From an uncultured Ruminococcus sp. (GTDB lineage Bacteria > Bacillota_A > Clostridia > Oscillospirales > Ruminococcaceae), in contig CAMOXW010000089.1 of NCBI GenBank assembly GCA_946629405.1, positions 1 through 7,745 of the forward strand: a DNA stretch of 7,745 bases. Reading direction: 5' to 3'. The position numbers and the translations under genes were made by a program. Below are positions 1-7,745 of this stretch, one piece after another. The notes under the pieces are model-generated. The model worked only from the letters and a program-made list of their open reading frames with translations, did not search any database and was not told where the DNA came from. Position 1 is the first letter of the stretch. Each line of letters starts with the position of its first letter.

Positions 1-628
1 AGACGATTTCCTCCGGCTTGTCGATAACGAACTCAGCGCCGGCAGCTTCAAGCTCACTGCGTCCGCGGAAGCCCCACGCGCAGCCAATAGTATGTATCCC
101 GGCATTGCGCCCGGTCTGGATATCGACGTTGCTGTCGCCTATCATGTAAGCCTCGCAGTCCTCGTCCGGAAGTGCAGCAAGAACCTCCGCGATCATCTGT
201 ATATCCGGCTTTGAGGGTCTGTCCCTCCTGCCTCCGAGCACTCTCACGAACGGTATATCCGGCAGAAGCCTGCCTATCAGCAGCTCGGCAAATTCCTCGG
301 GCTTATTAGTGGCTACAGCAAGCTTCACACCTGCCTCCGAGAGCCTGACCATTACCTCATGGATGCCGTCATACAGCCTTGTCTTGTCAAGGAAGTTCCT
401 GCCGTAATTCACGCTGAAAAGCCTGTGCAGCTCCGGTGTTTCGTCCTTGTGTTCATCCGGGAGCGCTCTCTCGCATAGCTTCCACGCGCCGTTCCCGACC
501 ATATATCTGTATTCATCGCAGCTGTGCTCAGGATAGCCCATTTCACGCAGTCCGCCGTTCACAGCGTCCGCGAGGTCGCACAGCGTATCAGCTATTGTAC
601 CGTCAAGGTCAAATATTGCCGCTTTCAT
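1..628 (-). CDS. HAD-superfamily phosphatase, phosphoglycolate phosphatase-like (3' end cut by window)
   Basis: My minus-strand translation from the ATG at 628 stays open to the window edge, giving 209 codons. The protein begins MKAAIFDLDGTIADT. HAD motif I is DLDGT, with nucleophile Asp7 and acid/base Asp9. Motif II is the Thr107-Asn108 region in AVATNK, motif III is Lys140 in PSKPD, and motif IV is GDSNVD with Asp165 and Asp169. An alpha-helical cap probably lies at about residues 15-85, as in subfamily IA enzymes. These are cytosolic Mg-dependent phosphatases, and the closest style is Gph/phosphoglycolate phosphatase. Substrates cannot be read from sequence, since pyrophosphatase PpaX and beta-phosphoglucomutase share the fold. 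Family members run to about 210-225 residues, so only a short C-terminal tail should be missing. The start is fixed by a strong GAGGAGG site overlapping the hslO stop 10 nt upstream. Confidence 0.9.
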   Translation of the reverse strand, partial: MKAAIFDLDGTIADTLCDLADAVNGGLREMGYPEHSCDEYRYMVGNGAWKLCERALPDEHKDETPELHRLFSVNYGRNFLDKTRLYDGIHEVMVRLSEAGVKLAVATNKPEEFAELLIGRLLPDIPFVRVLGGRRDRPSKPDIQMIAEVLAALPDEDCEAYMIGDSNVDIQTGRNAGIHTIGCAWGFRGRSELEAAGAEFVIDKPEEIV

Positions 629-633
629 AAGTT

Positions 634-640
634 CCTCCTC
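634..640 (-). promoter_or_regulatory. Shine-Dalgarno of the HAD phosphatase, overlapping the hslO stop
   Basis: On the minus strand the sequence reads TGAGGAGG, so the hslO stop codon TGA (639-641) shares bases with the GAGGAGG ribosome site. The phosphatase ATG follows 5 nt after it. Ribosomes finishing hslO are placed to restart on the phosphatase, so the two genes are probably translationally coupled. The coupling is inferred. Confidence 0.8.
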
Positions 641-1514
641 AGATCATGTCAATGAGCCGCTCTATATCCTGCGGGGTGAAGACGTATTCCTTCCCGCAGA
701 AATGGCAGCATACCGTGGTATCCCTGCCCTCGTCAGCCATTTTCCGAAGTTCTTCCCTGCCGATGCTTATGAGTATCCGCTCAGTTCTCTCGCGTGAACA
801 GTCGCAGCCGTATACCGGCTCAGCAGTATCAAGCTCATTCGGTTCAAGCCCGGCAAGAAGCATCCCTGCAATTTCCTCCGGAGTTCTCCCCTCGTCAAGA
901 AGCGCTGAAACAGGCTTCATTGCCGCAACATTCTTCTCAATAGTGTCTATGCACTTCTCGTCCGCAAACGGAAGCAGCTGCACCAAAAAGCCGCCCGCCG
1001 CCCGCACTGTAAGGTCAGGATTCACAAGCACACCAAGACTGCACACCGTCGGTATCTGCTCGCTCGTTGCGTAATAAGAAGCGATATCCTCCGCGATTTC
1101 GCCCGAAACGAGCGGAACTACCCCGACATAAGGCTCCTTCAGCCCGAGGTCCTTGACGACCGAAAGTGTACCGTCGCTCCCGACAGCACCGCCTACGTCG
1201 AGCTTGCCAATTGAGTTGAGCGGTATCTCCACGACAGGATGATCCACGCAGCTCTTGACGTTGCCCCAGTTGTCAGCCACAGCAACGAGCTGTCCCGCAG
1301 GTCCGCCGCCGTCAACACGGAGAGTTACCGTATCGCCTTCGCCCTTGAGCATATAGCCCATGAGAGAAGCGGCTATACTTAGCCTTCCGAGCCCTGCTGT
1401 AACTGCCGCAGAAGTATTGTTTATCCTTTCAATTTCCGAAACTATATCCTGTGCATCCAGTACCTCGGCAAAAGCCGAACCGTCCGCTGATATTGCTCTG
1501 TATAGCTTTCCCAT
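639..1514 (-). CDS. hslO: Hsp33 redox-regulated molecular chaperone
   Basis: The 291-residue protein matches Hsp33 in length and layout. An N-terminal chaperone domain (about 1-180) includes LRVDGGGPAGQLVAVAD (65-81), and a helical linker follows at about 185-230. The C-terminal zinc-binding redox switch has Cys237-x-Cys239 in YGCDCSRERTER and Cys270-x-x-Cys273 in CCHFCGKEY. In this family the four cysteines hold zinc when reduced. On oxidation they form disulfides and zinc is released, turning the cytosolic protein into an ATP-independent holdase for unfolding clients. Cys269 next to the motif is an extra cysteine. The start is supported by GGAGG at 1520-1524. The gene overlaps the phosphatase ribosome site downstream. 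It is separated from the methyltransferase upstream by repeat element E1, which now forms most of its 5' leader. Confidence 0.97.
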   Translation of the reverse strand: MGKLYRAISADGSAFAEVLDAQDIVSEIERINNTSAAVTAGLGRLSIAASLMGYMLKGEGDTVTLRVDGGGPAGQLVAVADNWGNVKSCVDHPVVEIPLNSIGKLDVGGAVGSDGTLSVVKDLGLKEPYVGVVPLVSGEIAEDIASYYATSEQIPTVCSLGVLVNPDLTVRAAGGFLVQLLPFADEKCIDTIEKNVAAMKPVSALLDEGRTPEEIAGMLLAGLEPNELDTAEPVYGCDCSRERTERILISIGREELRKMADEGRDTTVCCHFCGKEYVFTPQDIERLIDMI

Positions 1515-1531
1515 AAATACCTCCGTTTTTT

Positions 1532-1673
1532 TAATTCGTAATTCGTAATTATTTGTATCGCCTGACGGCGATGTATTTTAATTTTAAATCCGTCCGCGCA
1601 AGCGGACACCACAATTACGAATTACGCATTACGCATTACGCATTGTATTACGCATTACGCATTACGCATTATA
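1532..1673. mobile_element. Element E1: MITE-like palindromic repeat with two internal hairpins
   Basis: This non-coding insert fills nearly all of the gap between the methyltransferase and hslO. CGTAATTCGTAATT at 1537-1550 is the exact reverse complement of 1613-1626. With one mismatch the pairing extends to 1532-1550 against 1613-1631. Enclosed are two perfect 6-bp stems: ATCGCC-TGAC-GGCGAT (1557-1572) and GTCCGC-GCAA-GCGGAC (1592-1607, a GNRA loop when read as plus-strand RNA). Together they would fold as a three-way junction. The right side carries a tandem array of ATTACGC-type 7-mers. No clear target duplication and no ORF are visible. The element sits inside a probable transcript, so its RNA could be a processing or stability site; that is inference. 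Confidence 0.75.
1613..1673. repeat. Tandem 7-bp repeat array (CATTACG units)
   Basis: The units read in order are AATTACG, AATTACG, CATTACG, CATTACG, a CATTGT break, ATTACG, CATTACG, CATTACG and CATTATA. The array overlaps the TAA stop (1669-1671) of the minus-strand methyltransferase. The same unit, in either orientation, flanks the four-helix-bundle gene at 7339-7374 and 7711-7745. Confidence 0.9.
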
Positions 1674-2436
1674 ACCGTTGTCCGTTCCGTATGCACCTTG
1701 CAGCATAGACTATGCGCTGACAGTCAGGCGCAGGCGCTTCAAACGTATCACCGCCGTATTTTGCAAGCAGCTCATAGCCGTTCTCAGCAAGCAGCCGCTC
1801 AATGTCCTCCTCAGTGTAGGCTTTCTCCGAGAAGCTGTCCGATGAGCGTGACCAGAGACCGTTCTCCTCACGCTCGAAAAATTCAAGGTTCATTTTCACC
1901 TCATCAGTTTCCGGAACGAGCGTGTTCTCCCACACACAGTAAACATTCTCGGTCTCATAGGTAAATGTGTTGTCCGCAAGTATATTCCGGTGCTTGTAGA
2001 GTGTATTCACGTCGAAGATGAATAGTCCTCCCACCTCTGAGAAAAACGAAGCCTGCCCGAAGACCTTCCCTACATCCTCGAGGCTCGGAAGGTGGTTTAT
2101 GCTGTCAAGGGCGCATATCACGATATCGACCGTGCCGTACATATCGAGTTTCCGCATATCCTGACAGAGATACTGGATATTGCTGCCGCTGTCGAACTTC
2201 TTGTCAAGCGCGATGCCGAGCATTTCCTCCGAATTATCAACGCCGATGACGTCATATCCAAGCTCTGCCATGACCTCCGAGATGCTGCCCGTTCCGCAGG
2301 CAAGGTCAAGGAGGATGCCTCCCTCCTGCTGTCTGAACTTCCGGATAATTTCGTGGAAGTACCTCCCCCGCGCCGCGTAGTCGATATTCGCGGTAAGCTC
2401 GTCGTAGTACCGCGCAAATGCGCTGTATCCGCTCAT
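1669..2436 (-). CDS. Class I SAM-dependent methyltransferase
   Basis: The 255-residue soluble protein opens with MSGYSAFARYYDELT, the usual N-terminus of YqeM/YodH-style Firmicutes methyltransferases. SAM-binding motif I is LLDLACGTG (42-50). The acidic end of strand beta-2 is GVDNSEEML, with Asp67 expected to bind the ribose. CQDMRKLD (91-98, Asp93) fits the adenine-contact motif, and DIVICALDSINH is the motif IV region. It should transfer a methyl group from SAM, but nothing visible fixes the acceptor; small molecule, RNA and protein are all possible. Its ATG lies 4 nt after the tgt stop, with AAAGGA inside the tgt end serving as ribosome site, so the two are co-translated. The TAA stop lies within the edge of repeat array E1, so the last residue or two may have been altered by that insertion. 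Confidence 0.92.
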   Translation of the reverse strand: MSGYSAFARYYDELTANIDYAARGRYFHEIIRKFRQQEGGILLDLACGTGSISEVMAELGYDVIGVDNSEEMLGIALDKKFDSGSNIQYLCQDMRKLDMYGTVDIVICALDSINHLPSLEDVGKVFGQASFFSEVGGLFIFDVNTLYKHRNILADNTFTYETENVYCVWENTLVPETDEVKMNLEFFEREENGLWSRSSDSFSEKAYTEEDIERLLAENGYELLAKYGGDTFEAPAPDCQRIVYAARCIRNGQRL

Positions 2437-2440
2437 AATA

Positions 2441-3577
2441 TCAGTCCTTTGCGTGGGAGGCTAAAAGCTCTGAATACTTCCCCCGGAACTGCTCAAAGCG
2501 TCCCTCGTCAAGAGCCTCCCTTATCTTTTCTGTGAGAGTGTTGTAGAAGTAGAGATTGTGCTGCACGGCAAGTCTTCCCGCAAGCTGCTCGTTTGCCTTG
2601 AACAGGTGCCGCATATAGGCGCGTGAGAAGCTCCGGCAGGTGGGACAGTCGCACTGCTCGTCAACAGGCCTCGGGTCAGTCTCATACTGCTTGTTGCCGA
2701 GGTGCATTATGCCATTCCATGTGAAGACAGTAGCGTGACGTGCATTCCGGCTCGGCATTACGCAGTCGAACATATCGACTCCCCTTGCAACAGCCTCTAT
2801 TATGTTTGAAGGAGTTCCCACTCCCATAAGATAGCGAGGCTTATTGACCGGCATAAACGGCTCTACCACGTCGATTATCCGGTACATCTCCTCAGTAGGC
2901 TCACCGACTGCAAGTCCGCCGATAGCATAGCCGTCGAGGTCAAGCTTTGCGATTGTCTCCATATGCTCTATCCTGATATCGTCATAGGTCGAGCCCTGAC
3001 CGATGCCGAAAAGCATCTGGTGCTTGTTTATAGTGTCCGGAAGGCTGTTCAGCCTTGCCATTTCCTCCTTGCAGCGCATAAGCCAGCGTGTAGTGCGCTC
3101 CACAGAAGCCTGAACGTACTTTCTCGGCGCAGGGTTCTCCACACATTCGTCAAAAGCCATAGCGATGGTCGAACCGAGGTTTGACTGTATCTGCATACTC
3201 TCCTCAGGTCCCATGAATATACGTCTGCCGTCGATATGCGAGGCGAAGTAAACTCCCTCCTCCTTTATCTTGCGGAGCTTGGCAAGCGAAAACACCTGAA
3301 ATCCGCCGCTGTCGGTGAGGATAGGCTTGTCCCAGTTCATGAACTTATGGAGGCCGCCCATCTGCTTTATTATATGGTCGCCGGGACGCAGGTGCAGATG
3401 ATAGGTATTGCACAGCTCGACCTGTGTTTTCAGCCCTTTCAGGTCAACCGAGGATATGCCGCCCTTGATAGCTGCTGCTGTACCCACGTTCATGAAGCAC
3501 GGCGTCTGGAAGGTACCGTGGACAGTCTCGAACTGTCCCCTTCTTGCCTTGTTTTCGGTCTTGAATAAAGTAAACAT
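2441..3577 (-). CDS. tgt: tRNA-guanine(34) transglycosylase (queuosine synthesis)
   Basis: The 378-residue protein is full length for bacterial Tgt. It exchanges guanine 34 in the anticodons of Tyr, His, Asn and Asp tRNAs for preQ1. Asp89 lies in LTDSGGFQVFSL and Asp271 in FDCVMPSRNARHA; these align with Zymomonas Asp102 and the nucleophile Asp280. The zinc site is Cys309, Cys311, Cys314 and His340, with the same spacing as Zymomonas Cys318, Cys320, Cys323 and His349. Cys145 in FDEC and Val224 in GGLAVGE correspond to the residues typical of preQ1-using bacterial enzymes rather than queuine-using eukaryotic ones. QueA encoded two genes upstream supports the preQ1 route. An ACGGAGG site 6 nt or so before the ATG supports the start. 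The 168-nt gap upstream holds degenerate element E2. Confidence 0.98.
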   Translation of the reverse strand: MFTLFKTENKARRGQFETVHGTFQTPCFMNVGTAAAIKGGISSVDLKGLKTQVELCNTYHLHLRPGDHIIKQMGGLHKFMNWDKPILTDSGGFQVFSLAKLRKIKEEGVYFASHIDGRRIFMGPEESMQIQSNLGSTIAMAFDECVENPAPRKYVQASVERTTRWLMRCKEEMARLNSLPDTINKHQMLFGIGQGSTYDDIRIEHMETIAKLDLDGYAIGGLAVGEPTEEMYRIIDVVEPFMPVNKPRYLMGVGTPSNIIEAVARGVDMFDCVMPSRNARHATVFTWNGIMHLGNKQYETDPRPVDEQCDCPTCRSFSRAYMRHLFKANEQLAGRLAVQHNLYFYNTLTEKIREALDEGRFEQFRGKYSELLASHAKD

Positions 3578-3626
3578 AAAACCTCCGTTTTTAGTGAGCA
3601 GTAAGTTGTACAGAACGGCATCCCCG

Positions 3627-3645
3627 ACTTCTCACCGGTAGAAGT
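3627..3645. other. Small inverted repeat in the tgt leader
   Basis: ACTTCT (3627-3632) and AGAAGT (3640-3645) form a perfect 6-bp stem around the 7-nt loop CACCGGT. No T-run follows on either strand, so it is not a terminator. It lies about 50 nt upstream of the tgt start and may be part of the flank of E2 or a leader structure. No function is claimed. Confidence 0.4.
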
Positions 3646-3656
3646 GAACAGCGAAT

Positions 3657-3716
3657 GTGTCCGCATCGCGGACGGATCCAAATTCATTGCCGTAGGGCGA
3701 TACCGCAATTCCGAAT
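3657..3716. repeat. Element E2: diverged copy of the E1 hairpin core
   Basis: On the plus strand this reads GTCCGC-ATC-GCGGAC (3659-3673), a 12-nt spacer starting GGAT, then ATTGCC-GTAG-GGCGAT (3686-3701) followed by AC. E1 read on the minus strand gives the same order: GTCCGC-TTGC-GCGGAC, a spacer starting GGAT, ATCGCC-GTCA-GGCGAT, then AC. Both hairpins keep 6-bp stems; the one stem change (C to T) leaves a G-U pair. Beyond the second hairpin, ATTCGGAATT (minus strand) matches the ATTCGTAATT of the E1 end. The ATTACGC array is not recognisable. The copy may reach as far as the PAS gene stop at 3748. It lies in the leader of tgt. Confidence 0.65.
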
Positions 3717-3745
3717 CCCGGACCCTGAATTCAAAAAATCAGGCA

Positions 3746-4120
3746 TTAATCCAAGTCATATGCCTTGCCTGTCTCGGTGCTGCGGGGCATGATGTAGTTA
3801 TAGAAGCCGATGAGCCTGTCCTCGCTGTCCCTTACAGCCTTGATATATACATCCGAGTTGTCCTCATCCTTGTGGAAGGCAAATACCTTGTTGTTGTCCT
3901 TGCCCTCCTTGAACCACTCCACAGACATATCTATCTTTGACTGTGATTCCTCATCAAAGCACACTCTCAATGACGAGCCGACTGCAACACGGGCTCCTGT
4001 AGCAGTGTACTCCTCCTCCGCCTTCCTGTTCATGTAAACTATCCTGTAATCAAGGTCACAGAACACGATAGGCTTGTCTGCATATTCAATAACATTCTCA
4101 AAAAATACTCCCAGTTCCAT
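3746..4120 (-). CDS. Small stand-alone PAS-domain protein
   Basis: This 124-residue protein appears to be a single PAS sensor fold covering about residues 3-110. IVFCDLDYRIVYMNRKAEEEY (18-38) is the typical first strand-helix section. DVYIKAVRDSEDRLIGFYNY (90-109) is the typical closing beta-hairpin. There is no membrane segment, kinase, GGDEF, HTH or other output domain, so it would have to act by binding a ligand or a partner protein. The ligand cannot be read from sequence. It lies 48 nt downstream of queA and upstream of tgt on the same strand, so it is probably co-transcribed with the queuosine genes. The start is supported by a purine-rich AAAGGAAAGGG just upstream. PAS assignment is from sequence style; exact function is unknown. 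Confidence 0.82.
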   Translation of the reverse strand: MELGVFFENVIEYADKPIVFCDLDYRIVYMNRKAEEEYTATGARVAVGSSLRVCFDEESQSKIDMSVEWFKEGKDNNKVFAFHKDEDNSDVYIKAVRDSEDRLIGFYNYIMPRSTETGKAYDLD

Positions 4121-4168
4121 TTTTTCCCTTTCCTTTAATGTTATGCTCTTAATTAAATGTCACTCAGC

Positions 4169-5200
4169 TCAGAGGATGCACATACTGTCCCCGAAACTGA
4201 AAAATCTGTAGCGTTCCTCCACAGCTGTCCTATAAGCATTCATTGTGTTTTCGTACCCCATGAATGCAGAAACAAGCATTATAAGCGTGCTTTCCGGCAG
4301 GTGGAAATTCGTTATCAGGCCGTCGATGCACCTGAACTTATACCCGGGATATATGAATATATCTGTATATCCCTCGCTCTGTGCGCAGCTCCCGTCCTCT
4401 GCTGCTGCACTTTCAAGGGTACGGCAGCTCGTAGTGCCTACTGCAATCACTCTGCCGCCATTCCTTTTTGTCTCGTTTATGAGGTCAGCAGTCTGCTGCG
4501 GAAGGCAGTAGTGCTCGCTGTGCATTTTATGTTCAAGGACGTTTTCCTCCTTCACCGGACGGAAGGTCCCCAGCCCGACGTGAAGTGTCACAAAGGCAGT
4601 TTTTATGCCTCTCGCCCTGAGGTCGTCAAGCATCTCAGGCGTGAAGTGCAGTCCCGCTGTAGGCGCTGCTGCTGAGCCGAGCTCGCGGGAATAGACTGTC
4701 TGATAGCGCTCCTTGTCCTCGAGCTTTGCGGTGATATACGGCGGGAGCGGCATCTGTCCGACGTCCTCGAGAGCTGTGAAGAAATTGCCCTCACATTCAA
4801 ACTTAACGATACGATTGCCGTCGTCCTTTACCTCGATGACCTCGGCGGCAAGTCTTCCTCCGCCGAAGGAAAAGCGTGTTCCGACCTTTGCTTTTTTGCC
4901 CGGACGGCAGATTATCTCCCAGAGCTTGTCGCCCTTTTGTTCAAGCAGGAGGAACTCAATGAAGGTATGGTTGCTTATCTTTTCGCCGTAGAGCCTTGCA
5001 GGGATGACCCTGCTGTCGTTCATCACGAGCAAGTCACCTTCTCTGAGGTGATCGCATAGATTATAGAAGTGATCGTGGAATATCTCTCCTGTATGCCTGT
5101 CCACGCACATCATCCGCGAAGCATTGCGCGGCTCGACCGGTGTCTGAGCGATGAGCTCCTCCGGCAGGTCATAATAAAAGTCTGACTTCAGTAATTGCAT
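4169..5200 (-). CDS. queA: S-adenosylmethionine:tRNA ribosyltransferase-isomerase (queuosine synthesis)
   Basis: QueA moves the ribosyl part of SAM onto preQ1 already placed in tRNA by Tgt, giving epoxyqueuosine; it is a cytosolic enzyme with an unusual use of SAM. The 343-residue length is normal for the family. Family blocks visible in order are [12 protein letters not shown] (61-72), [12 protein letters not shown] (175-186), [10 protein letters not shown] (207-216), [10 protein letters not shown] (255-264), [10 protein letters not shown] (297-306) and the C-terminal [12 protein letters not shown] (329-340). AAGGAG lies 7 nt upstream of the ATG and partly overlaps the TAA stop of the AlkD-like gene, suggesting coupled translation. 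The following epoxyqueuosine reductase (QueG/QueH) and the preQ1 synthesis genes are not in this window. Confidence 0.98.
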
Positions 5201-5211
5201 TTGACTTCTCC

Positions 5212-5898
5212 TTATATCCTGAAAGTACGGAGATACTGTTTCCGCTCATCGCTTATGCGAAAGCTCTCCGATGCTTTCTGTATCGTCTTGTTGTGCGTCC
5301 ATCTGTCAAGACGCTTGTTTAAGATATACGGCAGTACCTCGTCATAATTCTTTGCGAGTGCAGTTGCGAAGTACCATGCACGCATCATATTTATGTAATA
5401 TTCCTCAGAGCACACTGCTGCTGCCCTTTCAGCGTATTCATTTCTGAAATCATCTCCGAGAAGATAGCGCATGAGCACACCTATCCCGAACCTGACAGTG
5501 TATGTATGCCCGGAAGCAAGCCATTTGTCCACAAGCGGCAGAAGCTCGCTCCGGTGCTTTGAGAAGACCTTAGGCGAAAGCTGATCGCAGGTCGCCCAGT
5601 TGTCAACATACGGCAGGAATCCCTCCGTAAGTCCGACGCAGTGCTGAAAGTCCTTCTCCTCCGAGATAATGAAGGAATGGAGCTGATCCTCCTCGAAGTA
5701 CCTGTGAGGCAGCGCACAAAGGAATTCATCCGTATCGCTGCGCTTTCTCAGATCCTTAGCAAGCTTCCTGAGATCAGGTGTCCTCACCCCGATGAAATGC
5801 TCTCTCTTGTGGTCCGGAATGAGTTTCTGCTGGAAATCAGCATATTTTTCATCGCTCAGCCTTAAAAGCTCCGTTTCGATATCAGCTAAAATACTCAT
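5212..5898 (-). CDS. AlkD-like DNA alkylation repair protein (HEAT-like repeats)
   Basis: The 228-residue protein is close in length to Bacillus cereus AlkD (237) and is all-helical in character, as expected for this HEAT-like glycosylase family. Trp101 and Asp105 in DNWATCDQL and Arg136 in YTVRFGIG match the Trp-x3-Asp plus Arg active-site set of AlkD (Trp109, Asp113, Arg148). AlkD removes bulky or charged alkylated bases such as 3-methyladenine and 7-methylguanine. The AlkC/AlkD2 subfamilies are alternatives, since not every relative is an active glycosylase. I chose the ATG at 5898 because AAAGGA sits 8 nt upstream. The longer in-frame start at 5961 lacks such a site and would run through the asd promoter. 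It is the first gene of the minus-strand run, 11 nt before queA. Confidence 0.9.
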
Positions 5899-5906
5899 AG
5901 GCGCCG

Positions 5907-5912
5907 TCCTTT
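5907..5912 (-). promoter_or_regulatory. Shine-Dalgarno deciding the AlkD-like start
   Basis: AAAGGA on the minus strand stands 8 nt before the ATG at 5898. It supports this start over the in-frame ATG 63 nt upstream. Confidence 0.7.
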
Positions 5913-5923
5913 CAGGTATTTTT

Positions 5924-5941
5924 TTCGTAAAATTCGTAAAA
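5924..5941. repeat. 9-bp tandem direct repeat in the divergent promoter region
   Basis: TTCGTAAAA occurs twice in a row (5924-5932 and 5933-5941), between the AlkD-like start and the asd promoter. It could be a tandem operator for the minus-strand promoter or a chance AT-rich duplication; nothing further supports either. Confidence 0.4.
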
Positions 5942-5954
5942 TTTAGAAAAACTG

Positions 5955-5983
5955 TTGACAACTCGCCTGTAAAGTGATATTAT
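5955..5983 (+). promoter_or_regulatory. Sigma-A type promoter for the lysine riboswitch and asd
   Basis: The -35 box TTGACA (5955-5960) is perfect. It is followed by an ideal 17-nt spacer and a -10 box TATTAT (5978-5983). The predicted RNA start is about 5990, exactly where the riboswitch begins. Confidence 0.9.
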
Positions 5984-5989
5984 GTAAAC

Positions 5990-6158
5990 AAGGTAGAGGT
6001 GCGGCTGAGATCAGTAACCTCACACGGGACGACCAGTCCGATGGTGTGATGTGAAAGGCAAAGCTGCCGAAGAACGGTCTCCGGTAAATTCCGTTCTGGC
6101 TGTATGCCGAACAGGTATGCGGCTGTCATCATTGCTTATGGTGGAGAGCTATCGGCTT
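5990..6158 (+). promoter_or_regulatory. Lysine riboswitch (L-box) controlling asd
   Basis: L-box landmarks appear in the right order: AGAGGTGCG (5995-6003), AGTA (6013-6016), a stem TCACAC/GTGTGA (6020-6025 with 6044-6049), GTGAAAGG (6051-6058), GCCGAAG (6066-6072), a 7-bp stem AGAACGG/CCGTTCT (6071-6077 with 6091-6097), CTGGC, GGCTGTCA and the closing GGAGAGCTATC. The first helix pairs GGTAG (5992-5996) with CTATC (6149-6153). In this class, lysine bound at the five-way junction stabilises that helix. With a terminator just downstream and asd, a lysine-pathway gene, next, the expected outcome is termination when lysine is plentiful. The class is recognised from motifs, not from a covariance search. 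Confidence 0.94.
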
Positions 6159-6210
6159 AGTTATAAATAAACTTTGCCAACATTTCTATTATAACGCATG
6201 ATGAACCGGT
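6151..6210 (+). promoter_or_regulatory. Candidate antiterminator of the lysine riboswitch
   Basis: ATCGG (6151-6155), partly the 3' strand of the riboswitch closing helix, can pair with CCGGT (6206-6210) in the terminator's left arm. GTTATAA (6160-6166) pairs perfectly with TTATAAC (6189-6195) inside it. The nested structure cannot coexist with either the closing helix or the terminator, which is what an L-box antiterminator requires. The outer helix is only 5 bp with one G-U pair. Confidence 0.5.
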
Positions 6211-6233
6211 TTGCAACCGGTTTTTGTTATTTT
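6204..6233 (+). terminator. Intrinsic terminator (riboswitch attenuator)
   Basis: AACCGGTT (6204-6211), a 3-nt loop TGC, and AACCGGTT (6215-6222) form a perfect 8-bp hairpin. It is followed by a T-rich run interrupted by one G and one A (to 6233). It stands between the riboswitch and the asd ribosome site. Confidence 0.9.
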
Positions 6234-6261
6234 GTGAAAAAATTTTTTAAGGAGAATCTCT

Positions 6262-7341
6262 ATGAAACAGTACAATGTAGGTATCATCGGCGCAACAGGT
6301 ATGGTAGGACAGCGTTTTGCCACCCTTCTTGAGAATCATCCGTGGTTCAATGTAAAGGTGCTCGCAGCTTCACCCAGAAGTGCCGGTCAGACATATGAGC
6401 AGGCTGCCGGAAGCCGCTGGAAGATGGCAGCTCCCATGCCCGCAGCTATGAAGGATATGGTGCTCCTCGACGCTACGAGCGATATCGAAAAGATCGCTTC
6501 TATGGTCGATTTCTGCTTCTGTGCAGTCGATATGAAGAAGGACGAGATCAAGGCTCTCGAGGAAGCTTATGCAAAGGCTGAATGCCCTATCGTTTCCAAC
6601 AACTCCGCTCACAGATTCACTCCTGACGTTCCTATGGTAGTTCCGGAGATAAATCCTGAGCATATCGAGATCATCAAGGCGCAGCGCGAGCGTCTCGGCA
6701 CAAAGCGCGGATTCATCGCTGTAAAGTCAAACTGCTCTATCCAGAGCTATGTTCCTGCACTCCACCCCCTCAGAAAGTTCGGCCTCAAGAACGTCCTCGC
6801 CTGCACCTATCAGGCTATATCAGGCGCCGGAAAGACCTTCGAGACATGGCCTGAAATGGTAGATAACCTCATCCCCTTCATCGGCGGCGAGGAGGAAAAG
6901 TCCGAGCAGGAACCCCTCAAGGTATGGGGCGAGATCAGAGGCAATGAGATCGTCAAGGCAACAGCTCCCAACATCACAACACAGTGCCTCCGTGTACCGG
7001 TATCAGACGGTCATACAGCTGCTGTATTCGTAAGCTTCGAGAACAAGCCCTCCAAGGAGGAGATCCTCCAGCTCTGGAAGGACTTCAGGGGCGTTCCCCA
7101 GGAGCTTGAGCTTCCCAGCGCTCCCAAGCAGTTTATCCACTACTTCGAGGAGGATAACCGTCCTCAGGCAAAGCTTGACCGCAACCTCGAAGGCGGTATG
7201 GCTGTTTCGACCGGACGTCTTCGTGAGGATACACAGTACGATTATAAGTTCGTATGCCTCTCCCACAATACATTAAGAGGTGCAGCAGGCGGCGGCGTGC
7301 TTCTTGCTGAACTTCTCGCAGCTAAGGGATACTTCGATTAA
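6262..7341 (+). CDS. asd: Aspartate-semialdehyde dehydrogenase
   Basis: The 359-residue enzyme reduces aspartyl phosphate to aspartate semialdehyde with NADPH, the branch point to lysine/diaminopimelate, threonine and methionine. The Rossmann nucleotide loop is GIIGATGMVG (7-16). The catalytic cysteine is Cys158 in KSNCSIQ, and the probable catalytic histidine is His251 in SDGHTAAV. The length and the NCS active-site style fit the longer archaeal/fungal-like ASADH group found in many Clostridia rather than the E. coli type. AAGGAG (6249-6254) stands 7 nt before the ATG. Control is by the lysine riboswitch and terminator immediately upstream. The TAA stop (7339-7341) is the first three bases of the ATTACGC-type repeat of the next element, so any native terminator is displaced or lost. 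Confidence 0.98.
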   Translation: MKQYNVGIIGATGMVGQRFATLLENHPWFNVKVLAASPRSAGQTYEQAAGSRWKMAAPMPAAMKDMVLLDATSDIEKIASMVDFCFCAVDMKKDEIKALEEAYAKAECPIVSNNSAHRFTPDVPMVVPEINPEHIEIIKAQRERLGTKRGFIAVKSNCSIQSYVPALHPLRKFGLKNVLACTYQAISGAGKTFETWPEMVDNLIPFIGGEEEKSEQEPLKVWGEIRGNEIVKATAPNITTQCLRVPVSDGHTAAVFVSFENKPSKEEILQLWKDFRGVPQELELPSAPKQFIHYFEEDNRPQAKLDRNLEGGMAVSTGRLREDTQYDYKFVCLSHNTLRGAAGGGVLLAELLAAKGYFD

Positions 7342-7352
7342 TGCGTAATTCA

Positions 7353-7373
7353 TAATGCGTAATGCGTAATTAT
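7353..7373 (+). repeat. Left arm of the 21-bp perfect inverted repeat
   Basis: Built from TAATGCG units, it is the exact reverse complement of 7723-7743. It covers the first two bases of the ATG of the four-helix-bundle gene. Confidence 0.9.
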
Positions 7374-7716
7374 GAAGAACAACATCATCGTTGAAAAAAG
7401 CAAACATTTTGCGTTAAGGATAATCAAGCTTTACAAATACCTCGTCGATAAGAAAGAATACATTCTTTCAAAACAGCTTCTGCGAAGCGGAACAAGTATT
7501 GGTGCTAATGTTAAAGAAGCTATCAGAGGTCAAAGCAAAGCAGATTTCTACTCCAAAATGAATATTGCCCTCAAAGAAACAAGCGAGACTGAATACTGGC
7601 TTGAACTTCTTAATGAAAGCGGTTTCATTGAAACAAGTCATTTTCAAAGTATTTACTGTGACTGTCAGGAACTGCTAAAAATCCTTATGGCTATCACAAA
7701 AACACAGAATTCGTAA
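7372..7716 (+). CDS. Four-helix-bundle protein of the 23S rRNA intervening-sequence (S23/IVP, Avd-like) family
   Basis: The 114-residue protein is full length for the family. It shows its hallmark blocks: N-terminal MKNNIIVEKSKHFALRI, LSKQLLRSGTSIGANVKEA (32-50), GQSKADFYSKM (53-63) and KETSETEYWLELL (68-80). Members are small basic helical bundles related to the Avd accessory protein of diversity-generating retroelements. They are thought to bind nucleic acid, but the cellular role is not established. No Shine-Dalgarno is visible: the ATG comes directly out of the TAATGCG repeat. The stop TAA (7714-7716) lies in the right-hand repeat block, which also encodes the last residues. It follows asd by 30 nt, so it may be read from the riboswitch transcript. 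AT-rich codon use unlike asd suggests acquisition by transfer. Confidence 0.93.
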   Translation: MKNNIIVEKSKHFALRIIKLYKYLVDKKEYILSKQLLRSGTSIGANVKEAIRGQSKADFYSKMNIALKETSETEYWLELLNESGFIETSHFQSIYCDCQELLKILMAITKTQNS

Positions 7717-7722
7717 TGTGTA

Positions 7723-7743
7723 ATAATTACGCATTACGCATTA
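7723..7743 (+). repeat. Right arm of the 21-bp perfect inverted repeat
   Basis: This is the exact reverse complement of 7353-7373, followed by CG to the window edge; the repeat block evidently continues outside. The upstream GTAATGTGTAAT (7713-7724) is a variant unit in the opposite sense and contains the gene's stop codon. Confidence 0.9.
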
Positions 7744-7745
7744 CG

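Follow-up and report, generated by a model that had tools for sequence, protein, structure and literature searches.

The S23-family gene (23S rRNA-intervening-sequence protein) that follows asd in a 7,745 nt stretch of DNA from an uncultured Ruminococcus sp. (GCA_946629405.1, contig CAMOXW010000089.1, positions 1-7,745 of the forward strand; "the window" is this whole stretch) lies between two tandem arrays of 7-mers in inverted orientation, and the same architecture surrounds most of the S23 genes that we compared. We describe the S23 gene and its two flanking arrays as one genetic unit, typically with five cores (about 32 bp) at each end. The spelling of the 7-mers differs between copies yet is the same at both ends of a given copy, which suggests a mobile element whose protein recognizes its own ends. 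We consider it reasonably probable that the window unit is a member of a family of mobile elements in which each end has a five-core array bound by a homopentameric S23 protein. S23/IVP proteins are common and structures have been solved, but we know of no function for them.

The window gene is a member of PF05635. Its 114-amino-acid (aa) open reading frame (ORF) matches PF05635 over residues 2-106 (1.6e-29, 102.7 bits against a cut-off of 33.8) and TIGR02436 (6.1e-32, 110.1 bits against a cut-off of 24), and the protein agrees with the four-helix bundle of the solved PF05635 members. The left array (7339-7370) reads TAATGCG TAATTCA TAATGCG TAATGCG TAAT, with AAT cores spaced 7 nt apart, and its first TAA doubles as the stop codon of asd, which ends at 7341. 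The right arm mirrors the left array and leaves the window after three cores. A preliminary description of the window had reported an S23/IVP gene directly after asd and outside rRNA, flanked by perfect 21-bp inverted repeats, and had proposed a free-standing, probably mobile unit without a transposase. The gene and its location are borne out by the profile matches and the ORF, and the repeats are exactly as described (7353-7373 and 7723-7743; 21 nt, 100%). The repeat is not a unique 21-mer, however. It belongs to a longer array of 7-mers, which vary from element to element and which the earlier description missed. The idea of a free-standing unit gains support: S23 is the sole ORF of at least 60 aa between the arms, no transposase or recombinase is found inside the unit, and the unit follows asd and is not inside a 23S rRNA gene. 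An Rfam scan of the window at the gathering score reports the lysine riboswitch only, with no group I or group II intron RNA and no rRNA. Complementary ends around an S23 ORF, as in rRNA intervening sequences (IVSs), and inverted terminal repeats, as in miniature inverted-repeat transposable elements (MITEs), are both present. We classify the unit as a free-standing relative of the S23-bearing intervening sequences. Table 1 collects the coordinates.

Table 1. Features of the window: the S23 unit with its surroundings, and a second element, without a gene, whose ends are of the same kind.
Feature	Coordinates	Strand	Remarks
Gene-less element, arm 1	1532..1553		three cores, same kind of 7-mers
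Gene-less element, interior	1554..1612		two short hairpins (~1557-1572, ~1592-1607), read from sequence
Gene-less element, arm 2	1613..1672		five cores followed by another array of four; opposite in orientation to arm 1 (1532-1553)
Lysine riboswitch preceding asd	5986-6159		Rfam RF00168, 107 bits
asd (aspartate-semialdehyde dehydrogenase)	6262..7341	+	upstream co-oriented neighbour of S23; stop codon inside the left arm
Left arm, tandem 7-mer array	7339..7373	+	five AAT cores, AATGCGT-type, inward-pointing; inner end overlaps the S23 start codon
S23 / 23S rRNA-intervening-sequence-protein family gene	7372..7716	+	114 aa, four-helix bundle; ORF and profile matches
Right arm, inverted 7-mer array	7722..7745	-	ATTACGC-type on the + strand; three cores visible, ends at the window edge

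The S23 genes that we compare come from several samples. A first scan of species-representative genomes provides 80 loci encoding relatives, the best 80 of 291, with record titles from Bacillota, Lentisphaerota (Victivallales), Planctomycetota, Bacteroidota, Spirochaetota and others. To these we added PF05635 genes from 20 genomes of the first loci, from 8 further genomes, from 20 extra loci in multi-copy genomes, from 80 genomes of the genus of Ruminococcus flavefaciens FD-1 (FD-1 from here on; 28 with a match), and from 148 genomes that belong to the same phylum as a Bacteroidales record (116 with a match). The loci from the added genome sets, and those of the further phylum sample below, are best-scoring matches, at most 30 from each scan, and not a random draw. 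A profile built in this analysis identifies 211 genes, 174 of them distinct once identical protein cores are removed, and 170 of these have both flanks of at least 120 bp; genes with a hidden Markov model score below 30 or with fewer than 70 profile positions are left out, and the window gene is also absent from the set. Later tests use subsets of the 170: 132 genes for the comparison of units with proteins, 127 for arm mismatches, and 89 for counts of AAT cores. A further phylum sample, from the phylum of one of the genomes (that of locus L057), covers 377 genomes, 127 with a match, and provides 29 loci, of which 2 are too short and 27 are testable. The plasmid sample consists of 16 loci fetched of 30 records with a homologue, from cyanobacteria, Chloroflexota, Bacteroidota, Spirochaetota and Bacillota; each of these is scored against five shuffles only, two are near-copies (L297 and L298), and one is a weak case (L296).

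Inverted 7-mer arrays are visible in nearly all flanks of the first loci. The spellings include CGT, CGG, CGC, CAT, CAC, TAGTTCA, TTAACTG and more, and in the printed flanks the spelling is mostly identical at both ends of one gene. The complementarity of the two flanks of S23 exceeds the 99th percentile of 390 control ORFs from the same loci in 68 of the 79 testable loci (of 81), where the control percentile is 37 and the S23 median 50; the window is untestable in this comparison because its right flank is too short. Ranking by the complementarity of swapped flanks is weakly informative because an AAT-type unit is common to many loci, and we therefore use tests at the level of the unit. An initial period-7 test on 119 S23 genes with both flanks, some counted twice, finds arrays on both sides in 109, and the consensus units of a gene's own two arms agree at 6.43 of 7 positions, against 5.10 of 7 when arms are swapped between genes (0/5000 permutations). 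Among the 170 distinct genes, the weaker arm reaches the threshold at period 7 in 106, compared with none of 170 shuffles. Other periods between 3 and 14 reach it in at most 4 of the 170, except for the multiple 14 (83 genes), and never in shuffles. In a joint score, which asks for inverted arms with a common unit, 148 of the 170 genes exceed the 99% shuffle level. In the further phylum sample, 22 of the 27 testable loci are above the level of 6.92 (the highest shuffle scores 7.5, and the lowest of the 22 scores 7.8), and all 16 plasmid loci are above their five shuffles. The inverted ends noted in the preliminary description are thus kept in most copies elsewhere.

The arms also have a usual size. 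With AAT fixed as the core, exactly five cores are found in 60 left arms and 56 right arms of the 89 AAT-type loci among the 148, and in both arms of 44; a freer choice of four core bases gives 4 or 5. Shuffled left flanks never have more than two AAT cores. As extreme examples, a few arms are expanded to at least 20 7-mer units (33 in L053, 23 in L263, 21 in L242 and 20 in L101, counts that depend on the core chosen).

The agreement between arms is specific to the element. Nine genomes have several S23 genes above the arm threshold, and for 30 of their 33 paralogues the best match to the left arm is the gene's own right arm. We considered genome-wide homogenization as the source of arm agreement; paralogues within one genome differ, and a best match within the element in 30 of 33 counts against simple homogenization of this kind. 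The similarity of the units correlates with that of the proteins (Spearman 0.66, 132 genes, 0/500 permutations), which is consistent with recognition but not proof of it, because common descent contributes. In the Nostoc plasmid locus L307, both arms are one 7-mer shorter than in its relatives L292 and L306, so the two arms of an element can change together. The structures of S23 relatives 2rld (BT_0352 of Bacteroides thetaiotaomicron) and 2gsc have five chains per entry, and the Xanthomonas S23 protein is described as a homopentamer in the available text of PMC4990558. By analogy, the window protein may be homopentameric as well, and the combination of five-core arms with five-chain relatives makes one ring per arm a natural idea. 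In the mechanism that we favour, the S23 pentamer would bind nucleic acid, namely the arms, with one ring on each five-core arm, and the bound protein would mark the ends or bring both together. Cutting and joining would be carried out by an enzyme from the host or from another element, and copies that have the same ends but no gene would have been moved in trans.

Such gene-less copies are dispersed in the genomes that we examined. The hits to an array pattern, which overlap, range from 0 to 169 per genome, while the reversed control pattern has 0 to 3. In the FD-1 genus, arrays are present in 26 of the 28 genomes with S23 versus 21 of the 52 without (Fisher 3e-6, uncorrected for kinship). 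The commonest of three queried array types is the type of the asd-site arms in 10 of the 12 genomes with an asd-site S23 gene, counting hits that include the element's own arms. In twenty gene-less regions of FD-1, selected by a pattern requiring at least four cores, 31 of the 41 array calls (three stretches being counted in both readings) have five cores, and the rest have three, four or six. The window has a gene-less element of its own at 1532-1672, between two genes that we take to be hslO-like and methyltransferase-like. At this site, the gap measures just 12-44 bp in 24 of 30 loci of relatives, and in 16 of these it is 12-16 bp; L313, counted among the 24, has the trace of an array. Two genomes (FD-1 and G006) have two-armed elements in the same place as the window.

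We also find empty, replaced and internally deleted sites for the S23 unit itself. Across the 80 genomes of the FD-1 genus, asd is found in 73, and we fetched 70 asd loci. The S23 gene is directly 3' of asd in 7 of the 70, and in an eighth genome (G036) it is apparently on a separate contig piece. Comparison of orthologous asd loci had been suggested in the preliminary description, and loci free of S23 do exist in relatives: ten asd-dapA loci have an intergenic region of 21-33 bp in which an array is not evident. Two others (L145 and L162) have been left with a 3' remnant of S23 and the right arm, and are internal deletions; several more, L130, L131 and L144 among them, retain a piece of array. 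At yet another asd site (L161), the left array is followed by what looks by eye like a GNAT-like gene where S23 would be. In three Nostoc plasmids (L292, L306 and L307), the element occupies the position of about 330 bp of a DNA cytosine methyltransferase gene; three relatives (L303-L305) have this gene intact. This is a gene disruption and not a clean insertion. The intact methyltransferase gene has one CAATTCG 7-mer close to the left junction.

The S23 units tend to have the orientation of their neighbours. The upstream neighbour is co-oriented with S23 in 56 of the 57 testable loci among the first 80, compared with 180 of 244 control pairs of adjacent ORFs. Of 56 upstream genes, 42 have their stop codon between -10 and +15 of the first core, and 41 of 47 downstream neighbours are on the S23 strand. 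These counts are not independent, because as many as ten of the loci are at the asd site and five adjoin a transfer-messenger RNA (tmRNA) gene. The 7-nt period places TAA in all three frames, and a TAAT-type array can therefore terminate any incoming frame. The co-orientation bias could result from selection for read-through expression or from the route of insertion. In the five loci next to tmRNA (L032, L050, L061, L066 and L073), ARAGORN places the tmRNA gene immediately downstream of the S23 element and in the same orientation. Several plasmid elements (L285, L293-L300) are within or beside clusters of type I restriction-modification, DISARM, CRISPR (cas1/cas2), or helicase-methyltransferase genes.

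A number of observations weigh against a mobile element recognized by its own S23 protein. The arm test fails for 22 of the 170 genes and for 5 of the 27 loci of the further phylum sample, and arms are absent in both of the two phage contigs with an S23 homologue. The Bacteroidota sample contributes at least 15 of the 22 failures. Swapped arms pass the 99% shuffle level of the joint score in 90% of cases, because similar units are common to many loci; it is the difference between own and swapped arms alone (medians of 11.2 and 8.6) that speaks for arm matching in this score. The correlation between proteins and repeats can stem from common descent. We see no target-site duplication at asd, upstream of hslO, or in Nostoc and related plasmids. 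There is also no precise empty site: the empty asd intergenic regions align poorly, and the Nostoc element replaces part of the methyltransferase gene. The 21 genomes of the FD-1 genus that have arrays while no S23 gene is found (among 52, drafts that are often incomplete) point in the same direction. At the asd site, the genome-wide array type mismatches the arm type in two genomes (G009 and G036), and in a third (G003) the right arm is mixed, so that only the left arm is of the genome's common array type. Beyond the asd-site set, one genome disagrees (G061), one agrees (G013), one is a tie (G012), and in another (G019) the matching type is outside the three queried. Finally, the S23 tree (88 rows, 114 columns) is poorly resolved: five changes are needed, and one is forced by starred branches. 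The tree does not separate a single insertion at the asd site followed by concerted change of both arms from several insertions.

The arrays could alternatively be the ends of an ordinary family, similar to MITEs or to repetitive extragenic palindromic (REP) sequences, that is moved by an unrelated transposase, S23 being merely a captured gene. In favour of this, array hits far exceed S23 genes (169 overlapping hits and one S23 gene in G036), many gene-less copies in Ruminococcus have an inner hairpin of the GGTGTC..GAC type, and arrays do occur where no S23 gene is detected. But S23 is recurrently the gene found between matched arms, with a 7-mer that tracks the protein element by element, and a captured passenger is not expected to track the repeat. 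Control ORFs of the same loci are rarely so flanked (the 99th percentile of the 390 is 37, below the S23 median of 50), and in the Nostoc plasmid element the inner hairpin is not apparent. We regard capture as unlikely, and a regulatory role as a little less likely still. The latter would make the unit a cassette whose S23 protein attaches to the 7-mers in mRNA and regulates how the surrounding operon is translated or how stable its message is; such a cassette would be inherited and shuffled by recombination and would not move itself. It would fit the co-orientation (56 of 57 upstream, 41 of 47 downstream), the stop codons near the first core (42 of 56), and the plasmid copies inside restriction-modification, CRISPR and DISARM clusters. 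The structural relative Avd acts in a reverse-transcriptase ribonucleoprotein, and translational control has been proposed for TAACTGA repeats by MacGregor 2015 (PMC4679880, in the text available). On the other hand, the host genes are very diverse, gene-less copies lie far from S23, some sites are empty, and one target gene is disrupted; a regulator has no obvious need of two inverted copies, and a need for read-through expression can explain the co-orientation as well.

The arms could instead form an RNA stem that RNase III cuts, removing the unit from the operon mRNA as happens with rRNA IVSs. The preliminary description had raised this possibility for asd, and the folding part of it holds: the window transcript folds with the arms paired (minimum free energy of -102 kcal/mol, z -4.3). 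RNase III does cut rRNA IVSs, and the Coxiella IVS with an S23 ORF has GACAGAT 7-mers before the start (PMC4990558, available portion). The kind of arm mismatches, however, does not support selection on an RNA stem, nor RNase III-type removal from the asd mRNA. Across 127 loci, an average of 85% of the 31 mirror positions agree between the two arms, with perfect agreement in just one pair. Pair-breaking T/G differences are the most frequent mismatch (226 of 601), and changes tolerated as G-U pairs (89) show no excess over A-C changes (87). We therefore take the arms for binding sites and not for the two sides of a conserved RNA stem. Gene-less copies, too, have arms of this kind at their ends. 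We consider excision as an RNA stem very improbable, although RNA as the molecule bound by S23 would be compatible with the mismatch data. Among all these alternatives, a mobile element with S23 bound to its ends seems to us the likeliest.

The S23 unit has similarities to several known systems. Like the 23S rRNA IVSs with an S23 ORF in Coxiella and Leptospira (as presented in the portion of PMC4990558 available), it has an S23-family gene between complementary ends. The Coxiella IVS is 428 nt long, with an S23 ORF and tandem GACAGAT 7-mers ahead of the S23 start codon, and that source describes the origin and movement of rRNA intervening sequences as still unclear. Unlike those IVSs, the units that we describe are outside rRNA, mostly between protein genes, at many places and in several phyla; they have 7-mer arms that are usually of five cores, gene-less copies, and no sign of RNA-stem selection. 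None of the loci examined has S23 inside 23S rRNA, as judged by four 23S motifs. Like MITEs and REP sequences, the S23 units are short inverted-repeat elements with many dispersed copies, internal deletion derivatives, and no transposase inside. Unlike them, their ends are 7-mer arrays, typically of five cores and with a spelling for each element, a specific gene is regularly inside, and neither a transposase family nor a target duplication has been identified. The window S23 protein has the fold of Avd, with a sequence identity of about 15%. Unlike Avd retroelements, the unit has no reverse transcriptase, since S23 is the only ORF between the arms; at the 16 plasmid loci, the only ones searched for this purpose, the neighbours listed out to about 1.5 kb (in an incomplete gene table) include none.

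Repeats of 7-mers have been described before. The Xanthomonas GGGAATC repeats are tandem 7-mers, mostly of four units and mostly intergenic, with 70 convergent inverted pairs in Xcc (PMC4692102, from the text available). The TAACTGA repeats are found in Beggiatoaceae, cyanobacteria and Bacteroidetes, and horizontal spread by a mechanism that is not evident has been proposed for them (PMC4679880, likewise). Both resemble the S23 arms in being 7-mers, and both papers, in the parts accessible, treat the repeats alone; a term search of that text finds no mention of S23 in either. Xanthomonas campestris does encode an S23 homologue, Xcc0516 (2gsc). We found no literature linking S23 genes to 7-mer arrays in a search that was without bioRxiv and most subscription papers. 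The S23 units could account for some of the over-represented 7-mer repeats of bacteria for which PMC4679880 and PMC4692102, as far as available, give no mechanism. We put forward, as possible rather than probable, a more general proposal: across a widespread class of mobile elements, S23 proteins would be the factors that recognize the ends, one pentamer per five-unit array, in lineages each with its own 7-mer alphabet, and scattered gene-less arrays, over-represented 7-mers and the ends of rRNA IVSs would all be products of one system. Whether the units are a class of their own depends on the enzyme that moves them. With a partner sequence that has a defined length and is spelled differently in each element, the S23 family acquires a role that can be tested directly. 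If S23 binds the arms, then proteins and repeats are linked by a recognition code of which nature supplies variants, and looking for the enzyme that cuts and joins becomes a well-posed problem.

Other repeats accompany the arrays. Many gene-less elements of FD-1 (L340-L359) have a second, inner hairpin GGTGTC...GAC(G)GATTT, of variable stem, beside one or both arms. Hairpins of another repeat family, GTAGGG...CCCTAC, are common in L340-L342 and in the intergenic regions of L111-L139, and are nested in some of the 7-mer elements; L340, L341 and L342 resemble copies of one composite element. In the window, a possible decayed gene-less element at 3597-3745, upstream of a presumably tgt-like gene, includes the hairpin GTCCGCATCGCGGAC and AATTCCGAATCC-like pieces.

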